Shown in pieces: positions 30,835-36,381 of a stretch of DNA of 36,693 bases. The position numbers and the translations under genes are program-made. Numbering within the stretch: the first letter of the stretch is position 1; each line of letters starts with the position of its first letter. The stretch lies in contig JANQGV010000259.1 in NCBI GenBank assembly GCA_028282925.1, positions 1 to 36,693 on the forward strand, written 5' to 3'. The notes below the pieces were generated by a model. It saw nothing but the letters and a program-made list of their open reading frames with translations, was not told the origin of the DNA and searched no databases. This DNA is from Thermodesulfobacteriota bacterium (GTDB lineage Bacteria > Desulfobacterota > WTBG01 > CAIYCZ01 > CAIRTM01).

Positions 30835-33800
30835 TGGGCACCTCCCTTCTTAACAACATCAACCATGAACGCCTTTGACTCGGGAATCATGGTGTTGGGG
30901 TCGCCGACGTTGGGTGTCAGCAGGTTGGCGCTGCGCAACTCCTTCAATTCAGGGTGCGGCTGGCGCCAGCCATAGTGCCAGGGCACGCCGACCTGGTGGA
31001 CCTCTTGGCCTTCAATGGTGAAAGGTTTGAATCGCGGTGTGACAACGGCAACCGCCACTACTTCACCGCGAGCCGATGTAACCTTGACGATTTCTCCGTT
31101 TTCAATGCCTTTCATGTCGGCCAGCTCTTTGCTCATTTCAACAAACATGTCCGGCTGTAATTCAAGCAGCCAGGGCTGCCAGCGGGTCATAACGCCGGTT
31201 TGCCAGTGCTCGGTGACACGATAGGTTGTGCACACGATGGGAAAACGCGGATCACAGGTCGCCCGGGTGTCCAACTCTGTGCCGATACCTTTTATGTCCC
31301 AGCGCTTGACCGTCGGGTTGACGAACTGCGGCGACATGGGGTTTTTCTCGATGGGGCATTCCAGGGGCTCATAATGTTCCGGGAACGGACCGTCTGCACG
31401 GCCGGGGCCGAATATATGAGCATGGCCTTCCGGTTTCATAATAAACGGGTAGCGCGATGCCTTGCCGGCTGCCAGAGGCGCCCAGCCGCCGTCGGGTACG
31501 TCGCCTTTCCATTTGGTGATGGAGCCCGTCCACCAGATAACCGGTTTGTCGATCGCCCACGGTTTGCCGTTTTTGTCGACCGAAGCCCGGTTGTACAGAA
31601 TGCGACGGTTTACCGGCCAGCACCATGACCACTTGGCATAGAGACCGATGCCGGAAGGATCAACTTTGCCCCGCCGGGCAGCCATGTTGCCCTTTTCGGT
31701 ATAGGAGTTGCAATAGAGCCAGTTGCCCGATGATGTTGACCCGTCGGCCTGCAGAAAGGCGAAGCTGGGAACCAGGGTGCCTTTTTTATAGAGCTTACCC
31801 TTGATTTCAACATCTTTCAGGAAGTAACCGTTGATCTCCCTTGCTACTTCATGGCTGTCAAAATGTTTGATTTTGCCGTCGGGCATCTTCAGGCCATAAT
31901 CCCAGGTGAGTTTGGTAATTGCTTCAGGCAGCTTGCCGCCTTCCTTTTCATACAGCTCTTTTATGCGGTAGTGCAACTCGGTGATGATTTCGCCGTCGGG
32001 CATAGCCTCGCCGGCCGGGTTGGTGGCTTTGTAGCGCCATTGCATCCAGCGGCCGCTGTTGGTGACGCTGCCTTCTTTTTCCATGGATGCGGCACAGGGC
32101 AGCATGAACACCTCGGTATCGATTTCAGAAGGGTTCATGTCCGGGCCCTTCCAGAAGGAGCCGGTCTCGTTGTCGAAAATATTTACGTTGACCATCCATT
32201 TCAGTTTGGTAAGCGCCTTGCGGACCTTGTTGGCATTGGCACCGCTACAGGCCGGGTTCTGGCCCCAGGCAAAGAATCCGCTGAACCGCCCTTTGTACAT
32301 ATCGTCGAAGATGGTCAGCCAGGAATAGTTTTTGCCGTCGTCCAGTTTGGGCGTGTAGGAGTAGGCCTCCTCCAGCGTCGTGTTAAGGCCGTAATGGGCG
32401 CGCATGAGGCTGTTGGAGTATTTAGGGTAGTTGCCCCACCAGTTGGCGCTCATCGGGTCGCTGGTTTTTGGTGTATATTTTTTGTTGTAGGCTTCCAGGG
32501 TCGGCTGGGAAGCCTTGGGTGTTTTCAGGTAGCCGGGCAGGATATGGAACAGCAGGCAGTGGTCGGTTGATCCCTGCACATTGGACTCGCCGCGCAGGGC
32601 GTTTACTCCGCCGCCGGCCACGCCCATGTTGCCTAAAAGGAGCTGGATTATGGCCATGGCCCTGATTGTTTGCACGCCAACGGTGTGCTGTGTCCAGCCC
32701 ATGGCGTACATGATGGTAGCCGATTTGTCTGCTACGCCGGTTGATGCATAGGCCTTGTACACTTCCAGCAGCTTTTCTTTAGGCGTGCCGGTAATAGATG
32801 CCACTTTATCCAGATCATAGCGTGACACGTGTTTTTTGAGCAATTGGAAAACACAGTTGGGGTCCTGCAGGGACTTGTCTTTTTTAGGCGTGCCGTCGGT
32901 ATTTTTCTGAATCGACCAGGTGGCCTTGTCATACTTACCGTTGACATAGCCCTCCTTGGTTTTGGTGCCTTTGAGACCCGAGAAGACGCCTTCGTTGTCC
33001 GCCGGCAGCTTAAATTTGGGATTTACCAGAAATGATGAGTTGGTATATTCCCGGACATATTCGTCAAAATAGAGATTGTTGTCGAGTATGTACTTGATCA
33101 TACCGCACAGGAATGCCACGTCGGAACCGGAACGAATCGGTGCATAGACATGTGCACGGGCTGAAGTGCGGGTGAAGCGGGGGTCGACACTGATAAGGGT
33201 AGCGCCCTTATCGATTGCCTGGGTGACCCATTTGAAAGAAATCGGGTGGTTTTCTGCAGCGTTGCTTCCCATAACCATAATGCAATCACTGTTGCGCAAG
33301 TCAATCCAGTGATTGGTCATTGCGCCGCGTCCGAACGACTCTGCCAGAGCCGCAACAGTTGCGGAGTGTCATATCCGCGCCTGGTGTTCGATATACACCA
33401 GGCCGAGAGAGCGCAGGAATTTCTGGTAAACGTAGCACTCTTCATTGTCCATGGCGGCGCTGCCCACAGAGGCGAGGCCCATGGTCCTGTTGACGGTTTG
33501 TCCTTTCGCGTTTCTCTCCTGGAAGCTTTCGTCCCTGCTTTTTTTGATGTTTGCAGCCAGCCTGTCAAGTACCCAGTCCCATGATTTCTCCTCCCACTTG
33601 TCACTTTTGGGTGCGCGGTACAGGGGCTTTGTAAGACGGTTTTCGTTGCGATGACTCAACTGGTACAGTGATGAGCCCTTGCTGCACAGACTTCCCTGGT
33701 TAATAGGATGATCCGGGTCACCTTCGGTGTACACCACCTTGCCGTTCCTGGTGTGCACGATAATACCACAACCAACAGCGCAGTACGGGCATATGGTGAT

Positions 33801-34208: not shown

Positions 34209-34263
34209 GCAATATTGGATAGATATATATGATGAGCAGTAGTAGAGGCCGGTCTTTTCCCAT

Positions 34264-34455
34264 TAGAGCAGATCACACAAGAGGATAGCTACGCCGTAGA
34301 TCTGTAAAGGCAGGTACGGTTGGATTACCGGCGGCAACGTGCTCGCTGGAACAGGAAGAATATGTATACGATCCATAGCGCGCACTGCCGTGGCTGCTCC
34401 AACCGTACCTGCCTTTACGATTCATAAGGGCTGTAATATTGTGTGAAATGCTCTA
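34264..34455. mobile_element. 192-bp nested inverted-repeat element (MITE-like or structured RNA)
   Basis: The outer arms are 17 bases each (34264-34280 and 34439-34455, 15 of 17 paired; TAGAGCA...CACACAA). An exact 21-base inner inverted repeat lies at 34304-34324 and 34398-34418. The 73-base centre has no coding frame of note. The ends read TA-GAGCA...TGCTC-TA, as expected if a small transposon duplicated a TA target (mariner/IS630 style). It encodes no transposase. The right arm contains the selB stop codon. A large RNA hairpin is the main alternative. Confidence 0.55.
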
Positions 34456-36381
34456 GGGTTCGTAGAGCTTTTTTCCCGGCAGGCGCTGCTCATCGACCCG
34501 TTTGGTCCAGTCGATGGAGTCGAAATATCCGGCCAGCGGTATTATCCATTTGCGGGTGGAGTTGAGGCTGTCTTTAATCTGCCCGATGGTAATACTTTTG
34601 TTTTCGGAAAACAGGTTCTGAAGGTGTTCCCGTGCCCGGGAGATTGTGCTGCTGTGAAAAAAGAATTTGCCCTGGATGCAGACGGCCCGGTTTTGGCAAA
34701 CCAGGTATTCCAGCAACGTGTCGATATGTTTTATCTTCAGGGTATGGCCCAACTCCTGGGCGGAGGGTGTCCGGCAGCCTGAATCCAGCAGCATTTTTTC
34801 AATGGTATCTGCCAGTTTTTGATCTTTTTTTGAGAGATTGATCTCAAATGACGGCAGAGCAAGGAATTCATCCCCTGCCGCACGCAGTACGTTGCCGTCG
34901 AGGGCAACATGCAGAAGCTCTTCAGACAGTTTTGCATCACCGGTGGAGCACTTATTGATAAGCTCTTGGTGCTTTATGCCGGACCGCAAGGGGTGTGTGG
35001 TGTGGAAATCGTTCAAAACCGTGGTAGCTTTAGCGATCCAGGCCCGGTAGTCTTTCCCGGATGCCAAGATGTCTTCTGTGCCAAGGGGTATCACTTCCCC
35101 GGCTTCAATGGGTAGGGCCAGTTCGCGTTTTAGGTCTTCGAGGTCGGCATCCAGCTTTTCGGCAAGCTTTCCGATGCTTATCCTATGGGCCTGGTGAACC
35201 GCTTCCGTCAGCAAGTTGGAAAGGGTGCCGTCGGACAGCCGTTGCAGGCCGGCAATAACCTCGGGGCGGTTCCTGCGATGCTTGGCCGGAGAGGGGTCCA
35301 GCACTTCTCCGCCGCCGATGGTGAGGGCCGGGCTGTATTGCCGGATCACAAAGCGGCTGGTTCTGCGGGTAGCAACCGGAGCTTCAAGCAGTATCTGGGC
35401 AAAACCCCACTCGCCCGGTGTAATCTGGTTTCCGTCAAGCATATGCAGCCGGGCCATGACTTCGGCGGTCCCGATATGAAAACGTACACGCTGACGATGC
35501 ATGAGCGGCTTCTGGTGAGAGGAAAGATTTAAAAGATGTACATCCAGTAGCATGCCGGGCTGAATGGAGCCGGGTGTGGCAAGCACCATACCGCGATGTA
35601 CATCGCTGAGCGAGAGGTCTGCGATGTTAAGAGCGGTTCGCTGTCCGGCTGAAGCCACGGGTACTTCCCGGCCATGACTCTGTATGCGCCTGACGCGCAC
35701 TGTTTTCTGCTGCGGCAACAGCTCAAGGGCCGAATCCGTCTGGATGGTGCCCGAGAGAATCGAGCCGGTCACCACTACGCCATGTCCCTTCATTGTAAAC
35801 GCCCGGTCAATGGGCATGAAAAAGCCGGCGGAAGGCGATGTCATCTGTTTTTGCCGGGCAAGCTCAAACAACGCCCCTTTAATCGAGGCGATGCCGCGCC
35901 CGGACAGGCTGTCGCACACAAATACCGGTGCATCCCGAAAGGCGGTCTCCTGCAGGTATTGTTTCACTTCATCGGTTATCAGCTCAAGCCATTCTTCATC
36001 GACTTTATCGGCCTTGGTAAGGGCCACAATGCCGTTTGTGCAGCCGAGCAGCTCCAGTATTTCCATATGTTCCCGGGTCTGGGGCATAATGCCGTCGTCG
36101 GCGGCAATGACCAGCACGGCGTAATCGACGGTTGCGGCCCCGGCCACCATGTTTTTTATAAAACGTTCATGGCCGGGTACATCAATTATGGCAACATTGG
36201 CGCTTAAAAAGGCAAATCCGATGTCGATGGTTATGCCCCGCTCTTTTTCTTCCTGAAACCGGTCGGGGTCGGTGCCGGTCAGGGCCTTAACCAGGGCTGA
36301 TTTGCCGTGGTCGATGTGTCCGGCGGTGCCGAAGATTACAGGCACCTGGGGGGTGTTGTCGGGAAGAGATGTGTCGGCCAT
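34453..36381 (-). CDS. selB: Selenocysteine-specific elongation factor SelB
   Basis: SelB is a GTPase that binds Sec-tRNA and the mRNA hairpin after UGA and delivers selenocysteine to the ribosome. The 642 residues have the EF-Tu-like G domain with GHIDHGKS (21-28), ERGITID (47-53), DVPGHERF (67-74) and TKAD (122-125). Two beta-barrel domains follow, and then C-terminal winged-helix domains (about 380-642) for hairpin binding, ending KKLYEP. Length is normal. Its stop codon lies in the outer arm of a nested inverted repeat, so the last residues may have been set by that insertion. No good ribosome site is seen before ATG 36381. The nearby fdnG is its obvious client. selA and selC are outside the window. 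Confidence 0.97.
   Translation of the reverse strand: MADTSLPDNTPQVPVIFGTAGHIDHGKSALVKALTGTDPDRFQEEKERGITIDIGFAFLSANVAIIDVPGHERFIKNMVAGAATVDYAVLVIAADDGIMPQTREHMEILELLGCTNGIVALTKADKVDEEWLELITDEVKQYLQETAFRDAPVFVCDSLSGRGIASIKGALFELARQKQMTSPSAGFFMPIDRAFTMKGHGVVVTGSILSGTIQTDSALELLPQQKTVRVRRIQSHGREVPVASAGQRTALNIADLSLSDVHRGMVLATPGSIQPGMLLDVHLLNLSSHQKPLMHRQRVRFHIGTAEVMARLHMLDGNQITPGEWGFAQILLEAPVATRRTSRFVIRQYSPALTIGGGEVLDPSPAKHRRNRPEVIAGLQRLSDGTLSNLLTEAVHQAHRISIGKLAEKLDADLEDLKRELALPIEAGEVIPLGTEDILASGKDYRAWIAKATTVLNDFHTTHPLRSGIKHQELINKCSTGDAKLSEELLHVALDGNVLRAAGDEFLALPSFEINLSKKDQKLADTIEKMLLDSGCRTPSAQELGHTLKIKHIDTLLEYLVCQNRAVCIQGKFFFHSSTISRAREHLQNLFSENKSITIGQIKDSLNSTRKWIIPLAGYFDSIDWTKRVDEQRLPGKKLYEP

Follow-up and report, generated by a model that had tools for sequence, protein, structure and literature searches.

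In the window, that is, the whole 36,693-nucleotide stretch of contig JANQGV010000259.1 that was analysed, a 192-bp MITE copy stands at the end of selB and has most probably inserted into a stop codon that was already there, changing it from TAA to TAG and leaving the SelB protein unchanged. Taking the joined flanks as the ancestral site, we put the probability of this reading at about 0.88. The odd end of selB would thereby be explained by an element that altered the choice of stop codon and not the protein, and for annotators this means that a stop codon partly built from a repeat need not indicate truncation.

The element and the end of selB

The palindrome occupies 34264..34455 and measures 192 bp with both TA (a 190-bp element plus the duplicated TA). 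The nested inverted repeat with TA at each end, which the preliminary description had reported here, was confirmed and lies far beyond chance. The outer ends, TAGAGCAGATCACACAA and, on the opposite strand, TAGAGCATTTCACACAA, correspond over 17 bases with two mismatches, and the inner arms at 34304..34324 (left, plus strand) and 34398..34418 (right, minus strand) are perfect 21-bp complements. As in other MITEs, a short length is combined with terminal inverted repeats, here of about 27 bp; the repeat on the fdnG side (34264..34290, plus strand) is a degenerate form of the family consensus TAGAGCAWTTCACACAATATTGTAGCC, and the one on the selB side (34429..34455, minus strand) contains the TAG that serves as the selB stop codon. 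With 192 bp the element is too short to encode a transposase, and it is without recognised coding content, no open reading frame of at least 80 aa being listed inside it.

The gene selB (34453..36381, minus strand, 642 aa) ends CCC TAG, and its stop codon at 34455-34453 does consist, as had been noticed from the sequence, of the duplicated terminal TA plus the first base of the element, G. When the window flanks are joined with a single TA, the minus strand reads ...TAC GAA CCC TAA TGG with a stop at the identical codon, and the reconstructed empty end of selB is CCC TAA TGGGAAAAG, the TA lying in the context CTAA. Accordingly reconstructed, the element would have landed in the TA of the original TAA stop, and the junction would read TAG after insertion because the element begins with G after TA; the stop would have passed from TAA to TAG and SelB would have remained the same protein.

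The C-terminal winged helix of SelB (SelB-wing_3) is complete, with nine residues left over. In the comparison of SelB C termini, homologues lacking the element had their last residue no more than a few positions away from the same column, and the terminal repeat (up to two mismatches) was present near the selB stop in none of 29 relatives, two of whose contigs end right after selB. The earlier suggestion that the insertion had defined the SelB C terminus does not hold, given the TAA of the empty site at the same codon, the complete domain and the homologous ends. That suggestion would still apply if the element had entered a sense TAT or TAC codon, or if the flank had mutated later, so that a new, earlier SelB end was created; the stop codon now used is indeed supplied by the element, and the ancestral sequence is a reconstruction and not an observation. 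However, TAA appears on joining the flanks, joined sites across the family are YTAR in 59 of 65 cases, and both the intact last domain and the homologues argue for an unchanged end, which makes such an earlier end quite improbable. Given the preference for YTAR, roughly nine in ten copies should yield TAA or TAG when their flanks are joined, in any frame, and this observation is weak evidence by itself; the case for a silent swap rests on the combination of a position in frame and a conserved end of SelB.

Immediately downstream of selB, the gene fdnG has an in-frame TGA at 33369-33371 (minus strand, residue 187), the expected selenocysteine codon, after which the frame continues.

Folding of the palindrome

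The minus strand of the element with short flanks (34255-34465) folds at -96.7 kcal/mol, with z = -8.8 against dinucleotide shuffles, and none of 200 shuffles folded as well. In the covariation analysis, 31 aligned copies retained 75.6% of the pairs of the window fold and showed 47 two-sided changes versus 27.6 in shuffles, a comparison from which the relatedness of the copies is not removed. To some extent the two arms vary in concert, which shared ancestry or a palindromic transposon could also show. Of the 31 aligned copies, that of the window folds most stably. In the alignment, termed A1, the stem pairs of columns 44-53 with 152-161 covary (A-U, G-C and C-G at one pair).

The strong fold, the pairs kept by these copies and the excess of two-sided changes would suit a palindrome that, whatever its origin, has been retained for a role as structured RNA or terminator at the 3' end of the selB mRNA. 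Nevertheless, copies are found beside many unrelated genes, on one strand or the other, a palindromic transposon would show such pairing anyway, and the shuffles preserve the relatedness of the copies. Moreover, no Rfam family matches the element at the gathering score, and no intrinsic terminator (a stem followed by a T-run) was found on the selB strand. We regard a retained RNA or terminator function as improbable, and as the primary identity of the element, which the preliminary description had offered as its second option, it found no support.

A dispersed family at TA sites

The first option of that description, insertion of a MITE-type element at a TA site, is supported by dispersed copies, by TA duplication in a nested copy and by the element-free selB end of relatives. 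A blastn search with the 192 bp found 17 places in the draft host genome, counting the reverse strand of the element itself as one, so that the element is multi-copy and the single-copy reading falls away. A search of the same genome with a 15-base terminal pattern, allowing up to two mismatches, gave 70 matches versus 7 in the reversed control. Similarly, the same-family genome G003 (JANQFE01) has 68 matches to its own 27-base version versus 0 in the control, and related elements also occur in three other MAGs. Candidate copies with paired terminal inverted repeats number 33 in the host genome and 53 in G003. They share common ends and fall into several core types, including the 192-bp type of the window, a type of 147-152 bp and shorter ones. 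The copy closest to the window element has 80% identity; since the window copy is thus 20% diverged from its nearest relative, its insertion is not recent and its flanks may have changed. Plasmids, phages and viral contigs contained no match to the element. The MITE family is real and, within the collections searched, new in sequence, but it is ordinary in kind.

The second type in the host, of about 147-152 bp, has the same ends and the core GGGTAGGAGCGGCCTTCGGCCGCGATACAGGCC (L017, L022, L038, L076 and others). A further type is found in G003 (L226, L228 and L231), with the ends TAGAGCATTTCACAGAAAAACATAGCC and the core GATTTTCCTGAGAAAAGACTTTGCAG, and an identical 27-base end recurs at six places in that genome.

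The only direct evidence of an unoccupied site comes from contig C98, in which one copy is nested inside another: when one element and one TA are removed, the restored host copy can be aligned without gaps to another copy, L010, for 150 bp (91% identity). The target-site duplication is therefore TA as derived from this one nested insertion, and TA stands at both ends in 65 copies. In 59 of these 65 the joined site is YTAR (CTAA 22, TTAG 18, CTAG 10, TTAA 9), while YTAR makes up 14.5% of TA sites in sampled DNA and 17% in flanks.

Among 97 gene/element pairs, with genes called by our own open reading frame and codon scoring and not by a standard gene finder, the TA lies exactly in the stop codon at 11 gene ends, and all 11 sites are TAA or TAG when joined. 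Recognised Pfam domains were present in six of ten tested proteins ending at elements, including SelB, Usp, MotA/ExbB and SurA-like proteins. Active targeting of gene ends or stop codons by the transposition machinery, beyond the YTAR preference, might be read from the excess of these 11 cases over the 4.96 expected from any TA within 100 bp (P = 0.005) and over the 5.8 expected from YTAR sites within 400 bp (P = 0.009). With YTAR sites within 50, 100 and 200 bp as the null, however, the expected numbers rise to 9.0, 8.4 and 8.8 (P = 0.06, 0.07 and 0.18), and the pattern would also arise if insertions within genes were selected against. A signal that was strong against the any-TA null thus mostly faded with YTAR as the null, and such targeting seems very improbable to us. 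Most of the stop-codon cases are explained by the YTAR motif, by the TAG that the element brings with it and by selection against disrupted genes. YTAR and the G after TA might further make insertions into TAA or TAG silent and turn stop codons into safe harbours, possibly with an extra preference for gene 3' ends, a speculative proposal that we consider rather unlikely. The reading proposed for selB also offers a simple explanation, open to test, of how TA-inserting elements can accumulate at gene ends.

Known elements and a possible autonomous partner

Elements of the IS630-Tc1-mariner group as a rule duplicate TA (PMC2170065), and IS630 prefers TA in CTAG, according to the title of a paper by Tenzen and Ohtsubo (1991) that PMC2170065 cites. 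The element described here resembles IS630 and ISY100 in its TA duplication, and the CTAG of IS630, as given in that title, is a form of the YTAR seen here; it differs from both in encoding nothing recognised, whereas they encode their own transposase. In the part of PMC5896051 considered, copies of QMITE1 and QMITE2 of Coxiella burnetii extend over the final 1-3 bp of several genes, as at selB; these belong to another species, and that part holds no reconstruction of a stop codon before insertion. RUP, an IS630-Spn1-related MITE of Streptococcus pneumoniae, is likewise short, with many intergenic copies, inverted-repeat ends and a TA target (PMC2229807). Compared by description, RUP differs in its length of 107 bp and in its known partner with matching ends, IS630-Spn1, none having been found here. 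Correia elements of Neisseria also have a TA duplication. They are short mobile elements with inverted repeats, in forms of 107 and 155 bp (PMC2229807), from another host and compared here by description, not sequence.

The TA duplication, as in MITEs mobilised by IS630-Tc1-mariner elements, and the CTAG-like target preference, as in IS630, point to a transposase of the IS630/Tc1 type, its family being suggested by these target features. No DDE_3 transposase was found in the host genome, a draft assembly in which absence is not proof, and the IS630 elements of relatives, considered as partners, have ends that differ from those of this element. Because no cognate DDE_3 transposase with matching ends was found in the draft host genome or in relatives, the element is not filed as a proven member of the IS630-Tc1-mariner-mobilised group. 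As possible parents, the six copies in G003 whose terminal repeats are identical were considered and rejected, since about 260 bp from each end resembled further short elements or unrelated sequence.

In the host assembly, contigs C98 and C100 open with the same 98 bp (L080:1-98 and L083:1-98), composed of the terminal repeat TAGAGCAATTCACAAAAAAGTGTAGCC and an interior unlike that of the other elements. Neither Pfam nor NCBIfam gave a match to these contig ends, and a complete element matching them was found in none of 395 genomes of the phylum. Since both contigs begin with the same 98 bp, a repeated member appears to be missing from the assembly, as if the assembler had collapsed it, and this member is perhaps a candidate for the autonomous partner.
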